The notes beneath the pieces are model-generated. The model did no database searches, was not told the origin of the DNA, and saw only the letters and a list, made by a program, of their open reading frames with translations. Shown piece after piece: positions 23,896 to 40,189 of a DNA stretch of 64,000 nucleotides (positions are counted from its first letter, which is position 1; each line of letters opens with the position of its first letter). The DNA is from Chloroflexota bacterium. GTDB taxonomy: Bacteria; Chloroflexota; Dehalococcoidia; Lucifugimonadales; Lucifugimonadaceae. The DNA lies in assembly GCA_018650845.1 (NCBI GenBank), contig JABIFF010000008.1, positions 248,001-312,000 on the forward strand, given 5' to 3'. Both the position numbers and the translations under genes were made by a program.

Positions 23896-26643
23896 CTAAT
23901 CGGCTACGTTCGTAGTCGTTTCAATCTTGTCGATGCGCACTGCGCACGCCTTGAATTCTGGCGTTTCGGTGATGAAATCGTAGGCATCGGACGTTAGCCG
24001 GTTCGTTTGGGTCAGCTCAGGGAACGCAAAGCTCATAAAGATCGTGCCATGCGGCGAGCGGTCTGTGACTTTGATCGGGACTTCAACTGATCCACGTCTT
24101 GAACTTACTGTGACGGTCTGGCCGTCTTTCAGCTCCATCTGCTCGGCATCGTAAGGATTGATTTCCGCGAGTTCAGAAGGAACCAGGAGGTCGAATCCTG
24201 ACGCACGGCCTGTTTGAGTGCCCGTGTGATAGGTCGAACGGCGTCTTCCGGTCGTTAGTACGAGCGGGTATTCAGAGTCTGTCGGCTCGGCAGGCGGAAT
24301 GTGGTCGACCGGAGCGAAATAGCCCGGGAGCCCTGAATCCATTTGGTCTTTGTGCAAATACTGGGTGCCGGGATGATCTTCAGTAGGGCAGGGCCATTGG
24401 ATTCCACCTTCGTTATCAAGGCGTTCGTAAGAGATTCCTCCGAAGAGCGGTGAAAGCCCTCGCATCTCGTCCCAAACATCGCTGGCCGAGTGCAAATTTT
24501 GGTCGATTCCGAAGCGGTTCATAAGGTCGAGAAGTATGTCGACATCTGTGCGTGATTCGCCTACCGGTTTTATGGCAGGTCGAACCCGCTGAACACGACG
24601 TTCTGAGTTGGCAAATGTACCGTCAGATTCGGCGAAAGAAGCAGCCGGTAAAACAACGTCTGCGAGCTTCGCCGTATCGGTCATGAAAATATCTTGAACC
24701 ACGATGAAGTCGGCTGCTTCGAGAGCTGCTTGAGCATGGTTAGTATTGGGGTCGGAAACGACAGTGTTTTCGCCCATTATGTAGACGCCCTTTACGCGCC
24801 CACGTAGCATCTGGTCCATCGCTGTTATTTTGGTGATTCCGCGCCGTTTTGGAAGCTCGGAATTCCATGCTTTTTCGAACTTTTCTCGGATGCCAGGGCG
24901 TTCAACTTTTTGGTAGCCCGGGAGGTCGGTTGGAAGTGCGCCTGAATCGGACGCTCCCTGCACGTTGTTTTGACCTCGAAGCGGGTTCACTCCAGCGTTC
25001 GGTTTACCGAAATTTCCGCCCAACATTCCTAGATTGGCGACCGATTGAACGTTGTGCGATCCGCAGGAGTGTTCGGTGATGCCGAGTGTGTAGCAAATAG
25101 CCGCTTTTCCTGAAGCCGCAGCATACTCGCGAGCAGTTGCGATGATGTCTTCGGCGGGAATGCCGCAAATTTCCGCTGCCAGCTCTGGCGTGTATAGCTC
25201 AACGTGCTTTGCTAATTCCTCAAAGCCTTCAGTTCGATTCTCGACGTAGTCACGATCGAACAGATCTTCTTTGATCATCACGTGCGCCAGCGCGTTGAAC
25301 AGCGGTATATCTGTTCCAATTTTGATCTGAAGATGCCGAGTTGCCCACTTCGTGAGTTCGGTCTTTCGAGGGTCGATTACGATCAACTTCGCCCCGTTTC
25401 GCACAGCGCGTTTCATTCTGAGCGAAATGACCGGGTGAGCTTCGGTCGTGTTCGACCCAGCGACGAGTAGAAGATCAGTGCCTGCTAACTCTTCAATTGA
25501 GTTAGTCATGGCACCTTTGCCAACCATGACCGCCATACCGGCGACCGTTGGAGCGTGTCAGGTGCGGGAACAGTTATCGATATTGTTGGTACCGATACCT
25601 ATTCGAGCGAACTTTTGCATTAGATAGTTCGCTTCGGTAACTGATCGAGCTGATGACCAACAAACAAGCGAATCTGGACCTGATTCATCTCGGAAACCGG
25701 TGAATCGCTCTGTGATTAGATCAAGAGCTTCGTCCCACGATGCTCGCTTGAATGCTCCGTTTTCTTTGATCAACGGGTACTTGAGTCGTTCTTCGCTTTT
25801 TACAAATTCCCAAGAGGCGAACTGGCCTTTCACACAAAGTGAACCTCTGCTTGGGGCTGAAAAATCTGGCTCAGTGCCTTTTAGCTTGCCGTCTTCGGTC
25901 AGAAGATGGATGCCGCAACCGACTCCGCAGTACGGACAAACGGTTTTGGTTCGTTCGAGATCTTCAGCCTTCGTCTTGCCGACAATTTTCTTGTCGGTCA
26001 GTGCTCCGGTAGGGCAGGTGTTGATGCACTGGCCACAGAACGTGCAGGGAGATTCAAGAAGTTTATTGTTGAAGAAAGAGGCGATCGAGTTGTCTTGTCC
26101 TCGACCCTCGACGGTAATAGCACCGGCTTGTTCCCAGTCGTTACAGACATTTGTGCAGCGGAAGCACGAGATGCAGTAATCGTAGTCACGCTGAATGAAC
26201 GGGTTGTCGTCTTCTGCCTTTTCTCGAACTACCAGAGAAGGGAAGGCATCCCATTTGGCTCCGTATTCTTCAGCAGCTGTGTGAAGTTCGCATTTCTTGA
26301 ACGAAAGACATTTTGGACAGTTCGCTGGAGAAGAAGTTTCAGATAGGAGTAGTTCGAGGATCGTCTTTCGATAGTCGGTGATTGAATCCGAGTGGGTTTC
26401 AACCTTCATGTCTTCGGAGGCGAACGCAGTGCAAGCTGCCACTTGCTGTTGCTGGCCGTCTACTTCTACATCTACCAGACACATGCGACAGGTGCCTTGC
26501 GGGCCTATTCGCTCGTCGTAGCAAAGAGTAGGAACGTCAAAACCGGCTGCCCGTATCGCATCGAGCACTCGAGATTCGGTTCCGCAACCGATCTCGATGC
26601 CGTTTACTTCGACATTCAGCTTATTTTTGACTTCAGTGGTCAT
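23896..26643 (-). CDS. fdhA: Selenocysteine-containing formate dehydrogenase, alpha subunit
   Basis: 915 aa molybdo- or tungsto-enzyme oxidising formate to CO2, read through an in-frame TGA at 25558-25560 (residue 362). The domain order is plant-type 2Fe-2S (Cys41, 52, 55, 71), NuoG-type Cys motif near 109-118, two 4Fe-4S clusters (Cys157-167 and Cys200-210), then the catalytic domain with its own 4Fe-4S (Cys236, 239, 243, 270). The TGA falls in NNIDNCSRT-U-HAPTVAG, where every relative has Cys or Sec. Reading continues in the same frame to the C-terminal molybdopterin-binding domain. A bacterial-type SECIS hairpin follows. No FdhB, NuoEF-like subunit, FdhD or selenium genes are adjacent. Confidence 0.93.
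25520..25551 (-). promoter_or_regulatory. SECIS-like hairpin after the in-frame TGA of the formate dehydrogenase gene
   Basis: Seven bases after the TGA the transcript can fold: lower stem CCAAC/GTTGG, an internal loop, upper stem CGCC/GGCG and apical loop GGUAU. The E. coli fdhF SECIS also has a short upper stem and a loop beginning GGU at a similar distance from UGA. It would recruit SelB-tRNA(Sec). Confidence 0.8.
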
Positions 26644-29118: not shown

Positions 29119-29877
29119 CTAGCGCCACGTTGCCCCAACGATTGATGCGGCCTGATATCCGGCACCGAATCCGTTGTCGATGTTTACTACGGACACTCCA
29201 GGTGCACACGAGTTCATCATCGCAAGCAACGCTGCAACACCGCCGAGGCTGACTCCGTAGCCTACTGAGGTGGGTAGGGCGATGACTGGAGCCTTCACGA
29301 GTCCTCCGACTACGCTGGGAAGTGCTCCCTCCATACCAGCGACGACGATGATCACTCTGGCATCGTTGAGTTCGTCGGCTTTGCTGGAAAGGCGGTGTAG
29401 ACCGGCTACACCTACGTCAGTGATTAGATTTACGTCGCAGCCCATCAGGGTTGCAGTTAGAACTGCCTCGCGGGCAATCGGTAGATCGGAAGTACCGGCA
29501 GCCACGACGGCGACACCCGGGAGAAGATCTGAATTGTCACGTCGATCTGCCCAAATTGCACGTGGCCCTTCTTCCCACACTGCTTCAGGGACCTTTTGTT
29601 TGAAAAGCTCGAAAGCTTCTTCAGAAGATTTGGTCACTAGAACTACACCAGAGTGTGCGTAAATGCGGGCAGCTATTTCGGCAGTGTCTTTTGGTGTTTT
29701 GCTTAGTCCGTATACAACTTCGGGAAATCCGATTCTGTCGGATCGGCTATGGTCCAAAGTAGCGAAATCAAGATCGGGTGCGGGCGTGATAAGTGTTAGT
29801 TCTGAAGAGGCTTCTTCGGCCGACATTTTTCCATCGGCAACGAGATTGAGCACTTCGTTCATTCGAGAGTTATTCAT
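29119..29877 (-). CDS. larB: LarB-like pyridinium-3,5-biscarboxylate mononucleotide synthase
   Basis: 252 aa from the ATG at 29877 (MNNSRMNEVLNLVADG, the usual LarB start; the frame runs 35 codons further). Landmarks are LDHSRSDRIGFPEVVYG, GTSDLPIAREA, GMEGALPSVVGGLVKAPVIALPTSVGYG and MMNSCAPGVSVVNIDNGFGAG. LarB carboxylates and hydrolyses nicotinic acid adenine dinucleotide in the first step of the nickel-pincer nucleotide cofactor, used by lactate racemase and related enzymes. LarC, LarE and LarA-like genes are not in this window. Confidence 0.9.
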   Translation of the reverse strand: MNNSRMNEVLNLVADGKMSAEEASSELTLITPAPDLDFATLDHSRSDRIGFPEVVYGLSKTPKDTAEIAARIYAHSGVVLVTKSSEEAFELFKQKVPEAVWEEGPRAIWADRRDNSDLLPGVAVVAAGTSDLPIAREAVLTATLMGCDVNLITDVGVAGLHRLSSKADELNDARVIIVVAGMEGALPSVVGGLVKAPVIALPTSVGYGVSLGGVAALLAMMNSCAPGVSVVNIDNGFGAGYQAASIVGATWR

Positions 29878-29998
29878 GAATAGTGAGGGGTAATTTCCGG
29901 GCTTCGTTGAGTTCAGATAAGGCGATAACAGTATTGCGTGCATTCTATCTGTGAATTTGAGATTCGCTAAAACTTCACGCAAACAAGGTCAGGTCAAA

Positions 29999-31299: not shown

Positions 31300-32664
31300 C
31301 TACATGCGACGTTTATTTCCGATCAATCCACCAGAAGCGATTTTGTACATCTCTTTTATACGCCTGTTGAGAACGGCTTCTAAATCGGGATAAGGCGTTC
31401 CGTGGCCATCCAAAAAGCCTGAGTGCTGACGCAACCGTTTGTGTGGAATCAGGTTTGGAGTGTCAATTAATCCGCAGTAATGCCATCCGACGAACTCTGG
31501 ACGAGCAAATGCATTGATGAACAATTCATCCGTCCACTCGGCTCTCTGAGCAAGATTGTCGGCAACGGGCCCATATGGTCTCGGCATGTTTTCCGTGATC
31601 ATCGTGTAAGAAGTGTCACCGTTGATAAATGGCTTATCGGTCACTTTAGTCCAGCGATCTAATCCTCTTCCTTGCACATCGTATCGGCCGTACATTTGGA
31701 TGAAAATTACGTCGGTATATTTACTGGTGATCGGTAGAAGAGTGTCTAGAGAGTCAGTGTTGGCGTTCAACTTGTCACCAATGAATAGATGGTTTGGATC
31801 GTGTCGAAGAATTGATTCTCTTGCAGTTTGGTAGTACTTAGATACGACCTGTTTCAGAAATTCGACGTTGTCTCGATTTTCATTACCATTCGAGAGGTCG
31901 ATCTCAGGCCTCCAACCTTCTGCGTCAAGTAGATGGTCAAATGACTCAAAGCTAGTATCGTAGCTTCCGTTGAAGTCTGTGATCCTATTCCTGTAGATCA
32001 CGCGCATGGTTTCGGTGTATGCCTGCTTTCCGGGTGCTGTTCGAGGCAAATTTCTCAACCTGCGCGGCCAGCCGATTCGAGACTCGCGAGGTGCCCCGCC
32101 AATCGTGTCAGTGCGTTCACGGCAGTCCTCAACAGTGAGCAAGGGACAATCGGTCATTGCGTAGGCGAAGAGGAAAGGATCATCTCGCAGTGGCGCTGCT
32201 ATTTCTCTTGCCATCTGGTCACAATGAGACCGAAAATCATCGGAGTACACGTCGACGAAATCCTCGTCTACAACGTCGTCTCGATAGTGGGGGATGTCAA
32301 CAAATTCAATTGGTTGCACGTAAGGCAACGAAGGTTGCTGGTGATTGGCGATCGATAGGTCTGAGTGAACGCCGACAGTGTTGATTCCATATCGCCGACA
32401 CGTTTCGACAAACCAGGCCTTCAATGCAGGTACGAACTCAGAACCACGAATGTCCTCCACTCCTAGTTTGGACTTCCATGTTTCCGCGTTATAGCTCTGC
32501 TGCCACAGATCAGGGTGAAGATGATTAATTCCAAAGCTAAGGAACGCATTGCCTTCCGGAGTTACTAGCCACCACCGTTCATCTTTTTCTACACGGAAAT
32601 AGCCGGTTGCCTGAAAATGCTTTCCCTTCCATCCACCGAACCGATCAAGTTCGTAACTCACCAT
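31300..32664 (-). CDS. Glycoside-hydrolase-like (agarase-type) TIM-barrel protein
   Basis: 454 aa. The N-terminal ATGYFRVEKDERWWLVTPEGNAF and LSFGINHLHPDLW blocks resemble the GH50/agarase-type barrel start (FR..DGRWWLV.P.G..F...G.NH). Further on are YAMTDCPLL, RHDPNHLFIGDKLNANT and FINGDTSYT, consistent with sugar-cleaving barrels. No signal peptide, so it would act inside the cell, perhaps on small oligosaccharides. Catalytic residues cannot be fixed from sequence alone. It lies reversed between dnaN and a dnaN-like 3' remnant and may be an insertion. Confidence 0.6.
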   Translation of the reverse strand: MVSYELDRFGGWKGKHFQATGYFRVEKDERWWLVTPEGNAFLSFGINHLHPDLWQQSYNAETWKSKLGVEDIRGSEFVPALKAWFVETCRRYGINTVGVHSDLSIANHQQPSLPYVQPIEFVDIPHYRDDVVDEDFVDVYSDDFRSHCDQMAREIAAPLRDDPFLFAYAMTDCPLLTVEDCRERTDTIGGAPRESRIGWPRRLRNLPRTAPGKQAYTETMRVIYRNRITDFNGSYDTSFESFDHLLDAEGWRPEIDLSNGNENRDNVEFLKQVVSKYYQTARESILRHDPNHLFIGDKLNANTDSLDTLLPITSKYTDVIFIQMYGRYDVQGRGLDRWTKVTDKPFINGDTSYTMITENMPRPYGPVADNLAQRAEWTDELFINAFARPEFVGWHYCGLIDTPNLIPHKRLRQHSGFLDGHGTPYPDLEAVLNRRIKEMYKIASGGLIGNKRRM

Positions 32665-36032: not shown

Positions 36033-36485
36033 CTACTGAAGAGAACGTATGTAAGCGACGAGTCCGTCGATTTTGGCTTCATCTAAAGCAGGGTTGCCGC
36101 CTTTTGGTGGCATATCAATACCGGTGGTGTTCGCAGGATCGCTGCTGGAACGTCCGACCTTGATGAGTGTTGCCAAGTCGGAATCTGAGATATCGGTGAT
36201 GAACTCGCTTCCAACTAGATTCTTACCGAGACCAGTTACGCCAGTGCCATCGGCACCGTGACAACCAGCACATGTTCCAAAGGCTTTTTCACCAATCCCA
36301 ACAAGTTCATCGTTTGATGGTCCTGCAGGTTTAGCGGTGGCCGCAGGTGCAGTTGTCGCCGTTGGGGCGGGAGCTGCAGATGACGAGCCGCCAGAGCTTG
36401 AATCATCACCGCCTCCACCACCGCAGGCTGCTAGTGCGGCTACGAGCAACATTAGTGCTCCAACCGCCAAATATTTCTTTATCAA
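36033..36485 (-). CDS. Lipoprotein cytochrome c of the nos operon
   Basis: 150 aa. Start is TTG at 36485 with a perfect GGAGGA six bases upstream, giving a lipoprotein signal IKKYLAVGALMLLVAALAAC followed by Gly/Ser and Ala/Pro/Thr linkers. The haem site is CAGCH, the methionine ligand is in GIDMPPKGG, and the end LVAYIRSLQ is typical of class I cytochromes c. As last gene of the nos cluster it is the likely electron donor to nitrous oxide reductase. Confidence 0.9.
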   Translation of the reverse strand: MIKKYLAVGALMLLVAALAACGGGGGDDSSSGGSSSAAPAPTATTAPAATAKPAGPSNDELVGIGEKAFGTCAGCHGADGTGVTGLGKNLVGSEFITDISDSDLATLIKVGRSSSDPANTTGIDMPPKGGNPALDEAKIDGLVAYIRSLQ

Positions 36486-36532
36486 TTCATTTCCTCCATA
36501 GATCCGCAGATCCAACTCGTTCGCACTCAAAC

Positions 36533-37012
36533 TCAATCGATATGTCGAGGTAGATCAGCTAGAGAATCCTCTAGCAATTCATTCCACCGATAAATAGGTG
36601 CACCGTGCTCTTGAGCAAGATGCTCTGCTCCAGCCTTGTATGTGAAGGCCGCAATGCCGTGACCCATAGGCGTCACGAGATCGTCAGTAGCCACGAAGAA
36701 GGCATCGGGAGCGTGCATCCACTCTCCAGTTTGGAAATCGTGGACCCAGAAGATATGAACATCTTCGCCATTTAGACGGTGATAAAGCACCATGTCGCCT
36801 AGATCGTCGAAGATCCGTAAGCCGCCGTCAGCAAGTCGATATGCTGCCGCTTGCGCTTCCTCTGAAACGATCATGCCGCATTGTTCGCAGATCACCTCGC
36901 CGTAAGCGATTTCCGGGGTTGCCTCGATGTCGACTTCACCCTGGCAAGCGATCACAAGCAGCGAGCCGATAATCAGGAGAATAGATATTCCTGTTCGCTT
37001 CGAGATTCCCAC
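36533..37012 (-). CDS. nosL: NosL copper-binding lipoprotein
   Basis: 159 aa. Lipobox VIAC (Cys23) and the NosL copper site ICEQCGMIVSEEAQAAAYRLADG with Cys42, Cys45 and Met47; the rest (FDDLGDMVLYHR, YKAGAEHLAQEHGAPIYRWNELL) matches the NosL fold. NosL delivers Cu(I) for assembly of the CuZ site of NosZ on the outer side of the membrane. Its start shares a base with the end of nosY, so translation is coupled. Confidence 0.95.
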   Translation of the reverse strand: MGISKRTGISILLIIGSLLVIACQGEVDIEATPEIAYGEVICEQCGMIVSEEAQAAAYRLADGGLRIFDDLGDMVLYHRLNGEDVHIFWVHDFQTGEWMHAPDAFFVATDDLVTPMGHGIAAFTYKAGAEHLAQEHGAPIYRWNELLEDSLADLPRHID

Positions 37013-37845
37013 TAGAAGGCTCCTCGTCGCTTGAAGATCAGGAATCCAATCCCAAGGGGTGCGATAACCCAGGCAACAAAAAGTGCCATCAGGATTGGTA
37101 GCAGGGCATCGCCGTACGTACGCATGGCGTACACGCCTGCAGGTCCAAGGACCTCTAGATCGTTCTTGATTGAGAGGATTGTCGCTAACTTGTAGACCTG
37201 AAGCGGATTGGCGAGTGCCATAAGCAATAGCTCTCGAACGCCGATGTCGAGGGTGACGGCAGTTCCCATCAAGCCAAGATCACTGAAGAATGCGAGAGTT
37301 AGCCACAAGAACACTGCGAGTCCGATCGCAGTTGCACCACGTCGTAATCCTGCTGAAAGCAGGAAGCCTATGCTCAAAGACGACAGTGCTAGCAAAACGG
37401 TTAGTCCAACTAGCGCTAAGAAATCGCCAGCATTCGATGAACCACCTCTTAGAACTACGAGTAGCCCAGAGATACCGAACCCCACCAGTAACGCCGCAAC
37501 CAAAGCAGCAGCCACTCCGAGGTATTTACTAATCAGGATTTCGAATGCCGTGACTGGTTGCGACATGAGGTAGGCAAGTGCGCCGCGCTCTCGTTCAGAC
37601 GCTATGGCAAGCGCACCGAGCGTAAGTCCCATAAGCGGCACGATAAGCAAAACCATGTTGACCATGCTGGCGGTTGTGCGCCCAAAACCTGCCACGCCGA
37701 ACGAACCAAGGCCTGAGAGCGCCATCCACGATAGGGCAGAGGCAATCACTGCGAAGCCAATGCCAAACATCACGAGCCAGCGGCTCTTTGTAGCGTCTCG
37801 GACTTCTTTTCGAGAAAGAACAGCAATGGTTTGTAGATCAATCAT
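37012..37845 (-). CDS. nosY: NosY-type ABC transporter permease
   Basis: 277 aa, six membrane segments. EVRDATKSRWLVMFGIGFA at the start and SERERGALAYLMSQPVTAFEILISKYLG are typical of NosY/ABC-2 permeases. With NosF and NosD it forms the complex needed to mature the copper centres of NosZ. The ATG at 37845 overlaps the nosD-nosF stop by eight bases, with AAGGGTGAT upstream; the frame itself extends 11 codons further. Confidence 0.92.
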   Translation of the reverse strand: MIDLQTIAVLSRKEVRDATKSRWLVMFGIGFAVIASALSWMALSGLGSFGVAGFGRTTASMVNMVLLIVPLMGLTLGALAIASERERGALAYLMSQPVTAFEILISKYLGVAAALVAALLVGFGISGLLVVLRGGSSNAGDFLALVGLTVLLALSSLSIGFLLSAGLRRGATAIGLAVFLWLTLAFFSDLGLMGTAVTLDIGVRELLLMALANPLQVYKLATILSIKNDLEVLGPAGVYAMRTYGDALLPILMALFVAWVIAPLGIGFLIFKRRGAF

Positions 37846-40189
37846 CGATATCACCCTTCCCTGTGCCTTCCAGATCAAAATCGACTACTGGAATGCCTGC
37901 GTCGACAAGAACTTTTATCGGCATCGCTTTCGCGCCCGGCGCTACTGTTACGTACACGCCAGTTCGGTTTCGTGAAGTTTTGAAATCGTCGTGCGAAAGT
38001 GCGTCCATTGCTGATTCAACGTTGCTGAGCCCGACTTCAATGCGCATCTTGGGGAGCGCACCGATTCGAGTCATCAGCTCTTCAGGTTCTGATTCAGCCA
38101 CGAGCTTGCCTTGGTCGAGTAGGAGTACTCGATCAGCGAGTCTTAGAACTTCTCCTGGTCTGTGAGATGCGAATACAAGTGCTTTGCCTTCAGCCTTCAA
38201 ATCCTCGAGTAGCGCAAGGAAATCTTGTCGTGCTGCTGCGTCGAGATTCGCCGTGGGTTCATCGAGTAACAGAACCGGTGGATCGCCTAGTAGAGCGATC
38301 GCCAGTGCAAGCCGTTGCCTAAGACCGCCTGATAGTTGTCGTACCTGCTTTGAAAGATGTGGAGCCAGTGTGAGTCGTTCCAGTAGGGCGGAGCCTTCGT
38401 TGTGGTTCGCCTTACGGAGTTTTGTGTACAGGCGCATCGTGTCGATAACTGTTAGATCATCGTGGAACGAAATTTCTTGCGGGACTAAGCCGACTTTGGC
38501 GCGTGCTTGTTTGCCTTTGGTGGCGACATCGATGCCACAAATCGAAACAGAGCCCTCGTAAGACACCTGCCCGAGAATGCAGCGTATTGCTGTTGTCTTG
38601 CCGGCGCCGTTGTTGCCCCAAAGAGCGAGACCTTCACCGCCAGCCAGATTGAACGATAGGTTTTGAAGGGCTTTTACATCGCCGAATGATCTCGAGAGGT
38701 CTTTGACTTCGATTACGTTGCCGCCTGCTGGCTCGCTTGGTACCACGGGAATTGCAACCTCTTTCTGGTCAGTTGGATGATCGCCTTTGGTCGAACCGAT
38801 TCGAGCTACAAGCCCAGCAAGCCCGACAAAAGCTAGCGACGCAGCTAATGTCTTCCATGCAAATTGTTTTTCATCGAGTAGTAGCCCCGGAACTGTGCCG
38901 GGCTGTACCAGCGGGTACGGATCGGTCAATTTCGGTACAGGTCGGACGAATGGGAACGATTTGGCTGCGAAATCCACCGCCTGAGTAACTGGACTGAACG
39001 TAAGCAACCGCAAGTTTGGGTGTTTATCGGTCAGATTTTCGAACAGTTTCTCGGATTTATAAATCACGTCACCAACCCCATCGTTGTTCGCGTCGAACCC
39101 GGCGTAATCGCTCCAATAGTTACCGACGCCATCGACAGCCCAGTCGTTTTCCTTGAGCGTGCCTCTTCCGGCAACTTGAACTTGCTCTTGATTGTCGACA
39201 AAGCTATTTCCGGTGTATTGATTTCGTTTTACCGATGGCATGAGCCTCACGCCAAAGTCGTTCAGTACAAATACGTTGTCGATGAACTCAACGGTGCTAT
39301 CTCTCTCTCGTGGAGAATTGTCGACGTAAGCTCCGACACGGTTGTCGGCGAAGAGGTTTCCTTTTACATATGCGTCATCGAGGTCTTTCAGGCCTATTCC
39401 ATAGCCCGAAGGTCCACGGTTGTCGCCAACTACGTTTCCGATCATTTGCAATCGGCGTGAGTACATCAGGAAAGCACCAACCGAGTTGCTTGTGAGCCGG
39501 TTATTCTCGACCAGAGCATCGTCGTCGTACATGAAGTGCAGACCGTAGCGGCCTTGGTGGATGTTGTTATTGCGAACGGTCAGTCGCTCTGAGTACCAAA
39601 GAACTACGTCACGTACGAGTGATACGTCGTTATCTTCAATAACAGTGTCACTTGAGTACCAGACACGAATTCCATCACCCCTGCGTTGAACTTCGAGATC
39701 CATGCCAGTGATCACGTTGTTACGAATTACGCCGAATGGTGCTTGCTTTAGGTAAATACCGAACAACGTGTTCTGAATACGGTTGCCTTCGATGACCACG
39801 CCTAGGGCGTTGGCCTCGATGCCAGCATCTTCAGTGTTGAGTTTGTTCCCTGAGTTTTTGATCACAAGCCCAGTGATCGAAACATCAGGAGCTTCTACCG
39901 TGAATACGTTTCCAGACCCGCCACCATCGAATTCAGGCCATCCAACTCCTTGGATACTGATCGATTTGTCAATCACAAAATTTCCAGTGTGAATGCCAGA
40001 GGTGACAGTGATTACATCACCATTCAGAGAAGCATCAAGTGCTTCTTGGAACGAGGCATAGGTTCCTCGATCTGATTCGATCGTTCCCGATGATTGAGCA
40101 CGGATAGACGATATCGTTGAGCCAATGGCTAGTAGAACCACCAGCGTTCCGATAGTCGTTGCGAATTTTCCAGCCCTGGAGTTCAGCAC
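37838..40189 (-). CDS. nosDF: NosD-NosF fusion: periplasmic beta-helix plus ABC ATPase in one chain
   Basis: 783 aa where NosD (about 430 aa) and NosF (about 300 aa) are normally separate. Residues 1-31 are a signal peptide; 40-400 is the right-handed beta-helix with NosD/CASH repeats (GIRVWYSSD, NNNIHQGRYGLHFMYDDDALVENN, YSDYAGFDANNDGVGD). Residues 443-465 form a membrane helix with positive charges after it. Residues 492-783 are a complete ATPase: Walker A WGNNGAGKTT (524-533), signature LSGGLRQR (619-626), Walker B LLLDEPTANLD (640-650). NosD is thus tethered through the membrane to its own ATPase. There is no stop or frame change between the parts. Confidence 0.92.
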   Translation of the reverse strand: MLNSRAGKFATTIGTLVVLLAIGSTISSIRAQSSGTIESDRGTYASFQEALDASLNGDVITVTSGIHTGNFVIDKSISIQGVGWPEFDGGGSGNVFTVEAPDVSITGLVIKNSGNKLNTEDAGIEANALGVVIEGNRIQNTLFGIYLKQAPFGVIRNNVITGMDLEVQRRGDGIRVWYSSDTVIEDNDVSLVRDVVLWYSERLTVRNNNIHQGRYGLHFMYDDDALVENNRLTSNSVGAFLMYSRRLQMIGNVVGDNRGPSGYGIGLKDLDDAYVKGNLFADNRVGAYVDNSPRERDSTVEFIDNVFVLNDFGVRLMPSVKRNQYTGNSFVDNQEQVQVAGRGTLKENDWAVDGVGNYWSDYAGFDANNDGVGDVIYKSEKLFENLTDKHPNLRLLTFSPVTQAVDFAAKSFPFVRPVPKLTDPYPLVQPGTVPGLLLDEKQFAWKTLAASLAFVGLAGLVARIGSTKGDHPTDQKEVAIPVVPSEPAGGNVIEVKDLSRSFGDVKALQNLSFNLAGGEGLALWGNNGAGKTTAIRCILGQVSYEGSVSICGIDVATKGKQARAKVGLVPQEISFHDDLTVIDTMRLYTKLRKANHNEGSALLERLTLAPHLSKQVRQLSGGLRQRLALAIALLGDPPVLLLDEPTANLDAAARQDFLALLEDLKAEGKALVFASHRPGEVLRLADRVLLLDQGKLVAESEPEELMTRIGALPKMRIEVGLSNVESAMDALSHDDFKTSRNRTGVYVTVAPGAKAMPIKVLVDAGIPVVDFDLEGTGKGDIDD

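Follow-up and report, generated by a model that had tools for sequence, protein, structure and literature searches.

Formate dehydrogenases of the FdhF type, including E. coli FDH-H (1aa6), FdhF of the hydrogen-dependent CO2 reductase (HDCR; 7qv7), and the FDH alpha subunit 6tg9, share a set of catalytic domains, a metal site in which Sec or Cys is followed by His, and the motif PLRGQNNVQGA. In E. coli, FdhD sulfurates the FDH cofactor and the FDHs need it, according to excerpts of PMC10609526. Among marine Chloroflexi, the excerpted text of PMC5736913 describes Sec-containing FDHs in the sediment single-cell genomes An-B22 and DscP3/Dsc4; these are organized as FdhAB or Hdr-linked complexes. 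A passage in PMC5649159 reports that SelA and SelB co-occur in the majority of sponge-symbiont bins from various phyla; the bins of that study include SAR202, and the passage itself names no bins. The idea in the earlier note that selenoproteins are little documented in marine Chloroflexota therefore has to be narrowed in light of these two papers, as excerpted. What holds is that the literature searched, which was mostly without subscription papers, yielded no paper that names a selenoprotein from SAR202. Word searches of the main text of PMC5395668, PMC5864207, PMC11245477, PMC6306507, and PMC11411561 find FDH mentioned in SAR202 and selenium not mentioned; the matches to 'selen' in these papers are an author name in the reference lists. 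Likewise, the main text of the paper reporting the culture of Candidatus Lucifugimonas strains (PMC10444878) yields no match to formate or selen. Sec read-through of UGA is a known device, and the SAR202 papers searched in this way do not mention it for FDH.

Here we describe a putative Sec-containing FDH of SAR202, encoded on the minus strand of a 64,000-nucleotide stretch of genomic DNA (the window). The gene, fdhA, is a single frame of 916 codons including the terminal stop, broken only by a TGA at codon 362 within the motif NCSRT-TGA-HAPTVAG (Table 1). The earlier note had reported this frame with one break at the catalytic Cys/Sec codon, and its coordinates are exact; as it also anticipated, a mechanical ORF list splits the gene in two, at 25558-26643 and 23896-25536. 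Each of the other five frames contains 27-42 stops across the same interval. Given that the only stop in the fdhA frame falls on the catalytic codon, this arrangement is therefore not due to chance.

Table 1. Features of the fdhA locus, in window coordinates.
Feature	Position	Strand	Basis
fdhA, predicted Sec-containing formate dehydrogenase catalytic subunit	23896..26643	-	915 aa, predicted Sec at residue 362; one frame, single TGA; Fdh-alpha 785 bits; full-length orthologs
TGA, predicted selenocysteine codon at catalytic metal-ligand position	25558..25560	-	aligned to Cys of 7qv7; TGA in 57/57 loci of >=60% identity
Putative SECIS apical hairpin, 7-bp stem GGUCGCC/GGCGGUC, loop GGUAU	25528..25546	-	frozen synonymous sites; pairing; decay in Cys homologs
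Match region of SECIS covariance model built here	25510..25560	-	70.5 bits; sequence is in the training set, so the score is not independent
Rfam SECIS_3 (RF01989) match	25505-25563	-	32.2 bits, E 2.3e-4; below gathering score 63
N-terminal 2Fe-2S domain Fer2_4, residues 7-85	26389..26625	-	Pfam
4Fe-4S ferredoxin-like domain Fer4_Nqo3, residues 148-216	25996..26202	-	Pfam
Molybdop_Fe4S4 domain, residues 231-276	25816..25953	-	Pfam
Molybdopterin oxidoreductase domain, residues 286-709, holds Sec362	24517..25788	-	Pfam
Molydop_binding C-terminal domain, residues 794-901	23941..24264	-	Pfam

Read through the TGA, the protein matches the Fdh-alpha equivalog family of NCBIfam (TIGR01591) with a whole-protein score of 785 bits against a cut-off of 666.25; the next-best family reaches 509 bits. 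By sequence, the solved proteins closest to it are HDCR FdhF (7qv7), an F420 FDH (9t1s), and several FDH alpha subunits, among them 6tg9. Codon 362 aligns with a Cys in 7qv7 and with a residue printed as X in 9t1s, and the stretches on either side are conserved relative to the solved FDHs. Alignment to these two chains also recovers the remainder of the metal site, with His following the Sec/Cys position (NCSRTU at residue 357) and the conserved Arg motif PLRGQNNVQG (GQNNVQG at residue 557); the motifs NPLRGQNNVQGA and SRT-U-HAPTVAG are kept as well. The SAR202 protein differs from FdhF-type enzymes in its N-terminal 2Fe-2S/4Fe-4S extension (6tg9 aligns from residue 10), in the lack of a NuoF/E-like neighbor, and in belonging to a genome family without detectable FdhD.

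No FdhB-, NuoF-, or NuoE-type gene was seen beside fdhA. It is flanked upstream by a DedA/UptA-like gene and downstream by a convergent 2-hydroxyacid dehydrogenase gene, and this order is kept in the compared related loci of the genus. Sec is predicted at the FdhA active site just as in the sediment Chloroflexi, but the SAR202 subunit stands alone where the excerpts of PMC5736913 describe complexes.

Several other genes were noted around the locus and elsewhere in the genome. LarB, for nickel-pincer cofactor biosynthesis, lies a few genes from fdhA (window 29119-29982, minus strand; 277 bits, cut-off 175), and LarB relatives are found upstream of FDH in several related loci. A 783-aa ORF on the minus strand (window 37838-40189) matches NosD over residues 157-364 and an ABC transporter ATPase over residues 508-647; from these matches it looks like a NosD-NosF type fusion. 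The window also contains a cytochrome c-like ORF (36033-36536) and, on the minus strand, a 454-aa ORF (31300-32664) that matches nothing in Pfam at E 0.001. On another contig (C17), tRNA-Sec adjoins a NuoE-NuoF-NuoG/FdhA-like cluster (L019:1-5792) whose big subunit, of 893 aa, is FDH-like at 392 bits, below the cut-off; by coordinates, the tRNA and a gene of this kind appear to be near each other in many relatives. We considered this cluster as a diaphorase for FdhA and set it aside: in the big subunit, the catalytic position as aligned by BLASTP holds neither Cys nor Sec, and long frames with 31-33% identity occur in the four genomes of genus g5 that have neither FDH nor the Sec genes.

FdhD is the usual companion of FDHs, although it does not define membership in TIGR01591. 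A TIGR00129 search at E 1e-10, with controls positive in 8 of 14 cases, detected it in none of the 76 family genomes. A PF02634 search at E 0.001 covered 34 family genomes, all of them among the 52 carriers of the TGA-containing FDH described below, and 3 further genomes whose Sec-FDHs are 61-66% identical, and detected FdhD in none; five distant FDH carriers gave FdhD with PF02634 in three cases and not in two. Given that FdhD was not found in the family, the catalytic competence of FdhA is not assured. One reading of this, which we offer tentatively and rate at somewhat below an even chance, is that the family keeps the Sec-FDH under strong selection without FdhD; sulfuration and delivery of the Mo/W cofactor would then take a route independent of FdhD, or the Sec enzyme would do without that step, with electrons leaving through an unlinked partner.

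The same absences could also mean that FdhA has become a Sec-containing molybdopterin oxidoreductase that, despite its FDH ancestry, does not oxidize formate any more. Such an enzyme would explain both why FdhD was not found and why no linked partner subunit was seen. We regard this as unlikely: the score for the Fdh-alpha equivalog is far above that of the next family, the solved proteins most similar to it are FDHs or the CO2-reducing FdhF of HDCR, and both sets of active-site motifs are retained. That formate is the substrate of FdhA is inferred, as are the direction of the reaction, the electron acceptor, and sulfuration of the cofactor without FdhD.

To compare the codon among orthologs, we fetched 109 loci (L030-L138), including the best 80 of 183 matches; the codon is covered in 108 of them and missing from one (L082). 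All 57 loci with at least 60% identity that cover the codon have TGA; because the two collections overlap, these represent 37 distinct genes. The closest named ortholog among the best 80 of 183 matches, at 95% identity, is from Candidatus Lucifugimonas marina JH1073 (SAR202; CP046147.1, L084); the named orthologs place the window in SAR202. The other 51 loci are all less than 49% identical and have TGA in 24 cases, TGC in 15, and TGT in 12, giving 27 with Cys; Cys appears only below 48% identity, the most similar Cys gene among the fetched loci being 47.8% identical. Close relatives therefore carry TGA at exactly this codon and not random stops elsewhere in the gene, so one of the two refuting patterns named in the earlier note is absent, and an in-frame UGA is conserved at a known Sec/Cys redox position. 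In seven relatives of genus g7 (G026-G032), the FDH match is divided into an N-terminal piece, extending to about residue 222, and a piece covering residues 228-910 in one frame. The two lie about 100-160 bases apart, with identities of 55-61% in the N-terminal part vs 71-73%, suggesting a lineage-specific insertion.

We asked whether the RNA downstream of the UGA carries a recognizable SECIS element. Seven base pairs (25546-25540 with 25534-25528) close a loop that reads GGUAU in this sequence and in 12 of the 31 distinct clade sequences, the other 19 having GGUCU. This loop resembles that of E. coli fdhF. The stem CGCC/GGCG with loop GGUAU proposed in the earlier note is upheld and extends to these seven pairs. 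Its second stem, CCAAC/GTTGG, is present in this sequence; we rejected it as part of the element, as its middle pair (12-39) fails in 39 of 53 relatives and pair 14-37 fails in 23 of 53.

Selection on the RNA was evaluated at synonymous sites in the 37 clade genes. At fourfold third positions of codons +4, +5, +6, +7, +9, and +10 after the TGA, diversity is 0.062, 0, 0.054, 0, 0, and 0, compared with a gene mean of 0.672 over 335 columns; codons +2, +3, +12, +13, +15, and +16 vary, with diversities of 0.45-0.74. The frozen block, codons +4 to +10, coincides with the apical hairpin. In a test on the 577 columns left after dropping those with less than 80% of sequences or with less than 70% sharing a codon box, the stretch from +2 to +10 is the lowest of 570 stretches with an equal number of columns. 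Other choices of boundaries give 5 of 571 stretches as low (+1 to +8), 2 of 568 (+1 to +12), and 8 of 565 (+1 to +16). The flanking stretches are less extreme, with 55 of 566 as low for -12 to -1 and 34 of 570 for +13 to +24.

Base pairing was then examined in 53 distinct sequences with the Sec codon, drawn from SAR202 and other phyla. In the apical helix, 95.4% of cells are paired and three of the seven pairs show changes on both sides (e.g., CG 35, UA 9, GC 8, AU 1). The two helices taken jointly give a covariation score of 0.272, compared with 0.149 in shuffled alignments, none of the 500 reaching the observed score, and 0.023-0.093 when slid. Two of the five covariation measures are no higher than in shuffles, which leave relatedness in place: pairs changed on both sides number 4 vs 3.6 (equaled or exceeded in 331 of 500 shuffles), and there are 15 vs 15.5 further pair types (397 of 500). 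In 26 distinct Cys homologs, 62.6% of apical helix cells are paired and covariation is slight (0.133 vs 0.097 shuffled; 12 of 500 as high). Of the 26 Cys homologs, 9 retain the loop codon GGT, vs all 31 clade sequences and 21 of the 22 distant Sec sequences; at least four contiguous stem pairs are found in 3 of the 26, vs all 31 and all 22. These computed patterns indicate that the hairpin downstream of the UGA is under selection as RNA.

Folding energy was set aside as evidence for the hairpin, since the minimum free energy lies within the range of shuffles (z of -0.86 to -1.62 for four stretches) and is unconvincing alone; the synonymous-site and covariation tests were used instead. Folding of bases 25500-25560 on the minus strand, a check proposed in the earlier note, mostly yields a structure other than the proposed hairpin; the other three of the four stretches pair the apical stem in another register, with the 3' partner displaced by three bases. 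In the second proposed check, with bacterial SECIS models, neither SECIS_3 (32.2 of 63 bits) nor SECIS_2 (21.3 of 70 bits) reaches its Rfam gathering threshold, and the SECIS_3 match is suggestive. Like SECIS_3, the fdhA element is a hairpin directly 3' of the UGA within the coding sequence, here with loop GGU(C/A)U; it differs in scoring below the curated threshold and in having a lower stem that is unconserved in the SAR202 clade.

Together these comparisons bear on the objection that the TGA is an ordinary stop and fdhA a pseudogene or a sequencing error. A mechanical ORF finder does give two ORFs, and a missing FdhD could suit a dying enzyme; this explanation is nonetheless extremely improbable, as the identical TGA is found in all 37 distinct clade genes from many assemblies, including the complete chromosome record CP046147.1 (L084), the frame is otherwise open across proteins of 61-95% identity with both sides of the codon conserved, and synonymous sites 3' of the TGA are frozen.

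Decoding of UGA as Sec calls for dedicated machinery, and the earlier note predicted that the organism has SelA, SelB, SelC, and SelD. Indeed, all four are present in the host genome (G000; 2.48 Mb, 24 contigs, 87% complete), giving it the full gene set of the Sec-decoding trait. SelA is on contig C6 (516.5 bits, cut-off 267.9), SelB on C13 (350 bits, cut-off 242) with the winged-helix domains PF09106 and PF09107, and SelD on C21 (368-374 bits, cut-off 125). A tRNA-Sec with anticodon UCA, likewise above its curated cut-off, is found at the end of contig C3 and again at the end of C17; the two matches are identical in sequence and we rejected the idea that they are two genes. The single-contig relative G041, whose FDH coordinates agree with those in CP046147.1 and which is therefore probably the same record, also has all four: tRNA-Sec at 1570745, SelA at 1721509, SelB at 1941864, and SelD, with one TGA, at 287363. 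The other refuting pattern of the earlier note, a lack of selB or tRNA-Sec, is not seen in either genome.

SelD is a widespread selenoprotein, as stated in PMC1794560. In the host genome, it has its own in-frame TGA in the motif LATCAG-U-AGK (G000:C21:78185-79111; L025:1483-2538, plus strand, TGA 1531-1533), sharing CAG-U-AGK with Sec-containing SelDs, and the TGA is present in all 30 family genes read; by these sequence features, SelD is the second predicted selenoprotein of this genome. Its hairpin lies farther from the UGA than that of fdhA, at bases 28-48 from the U of UGA vs 15-33. Across the 30 genes, 92.6% of its cells are paired and covariation is 0.349 vs 0.192 in shuffles (0 of 500 as high), with no excess of pairs changed on both sides (2 vs 1.8) or of further pair types (8 vs 8.3). 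The synonymous freeze is weaker than in fdhA: depending on the choice of stretch, between 4 and 15 stretches out of 183 to 186 are as low. The FDH SECIS model was also run on 19 genomes belonging to the genus. It finds the FDH site at 68-70.5 bits in 15 genomes and nothing in four; one of the 15 has an additional 45-bit match in a contig fragment of the FDH site, and all other matches are at or below 18.5 bits. The model misses the SelD hairpin in seven loci; the scan is therefore not a survey of the selenoproteome, and further selenoproteins are possible.

A general reassignment or suppression of TGA (e.g., as Trp or Cys), not specific to Sec, draws weakly on the observation that 3 of the 13 window genes looked at end in TGA, two of these being followed by TAA or TAG after one or two more codons, and we give it practically no credence: among the genes read, in-frame TGA occurs only at the Sec positions of FdhA and SelD, with none in the SelA and SelB frames, a dedicated tRNA-Sec is present together with SelA, SelB, and SelD, and the hairpin decays where the codon is Cys.

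The FDH and the Sec genes were also compared across the 76 family genomes. TGA-containing FDH orthologs, full or partial, with at least 60% identity and reaching the codon, are found in 52. Among these carriers, tRNA-Sec is found in 43, SelA in 47, SelB in 48, SelD in 50, and all four in 37. Among the 24 genomes without the TGA-FDH, 16 have none of the four Sec genes over the thresholds used. This includes genera g4 (10 genomes, two with SelB-like matches below the cut-off) and g5 (4 genomes), which lack FDH and all four Sec genes. Within genus g10, where six of nine genomes have FDH, G067 (97% complete) and G061 lack all five genes. The association between FDH and the Sec genes has Fisher p values of 1.7e-10 to 3.3e-8, uncorrected for relatedness. 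There are counter-cases on both sides: G047, G057, and G063 have all four Sec genes with FDH undetected, and in 15 of the 52 FDH carriers the search did not detect one or more of the Sec genes, tRNA-Sec in nine of them, which is probably due to genome incompleteness. In these counts, tRNA-Sec matches of 48-56 bits were treated as tRNA-Ser, based on one checked case (52.3 bits) and a gap in scores between 55.8 and 65.1 bits; SelB matches below the cut-off in G016 and G018 (205-206 bits), FDH matches under 60% identity, and FDH pieces short of the codon (G046) were left out. With these exceptions, the predicted Sec-FDH and the Sec genes largely appear and vanish together.

Taken with the conserved codon and hairpin, these data make it highly probable, judging from the sequences compared, that the TGA at codon 362 is read as selenocysteine and that fdhA encodes a selenoprotein FDH. 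In the mechanism we propose, SelA would make Sec-tRNA-Sec(UCA) from selenophosphate supplied by SelD, and SelB loaded with this tRNA would bind the apical hairpin just 3' of the UGA, so that the ribosome, with SelB bound, would insert Sec instead of terminating. The product would be an Fe-S-extended Mo/W formate dehydrogenase with Sec as the catalytic metal ligand. Formate arising from C1 or demethylation metabolism would be oxidized by FdhA to CO2, and the electrons would pass along the N-terminal Fe-S chain to an unlinked partner.

One practical consequence is that ORF finders without Sec handling will split fdhA. What is unusual here is a family of genomes in which no FdhD was found although most carry the predicted Sec-FDH, and an FDH without a linked NADH-oxidizing subunit. 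If our reading is true, formate oxidation in SAR202 bacteria depends on selenium supply; the interest of the finding lies in the missing FdhD and in the prospect that a widespread ocean lineage needs selenium to oxidize C1 compounds.
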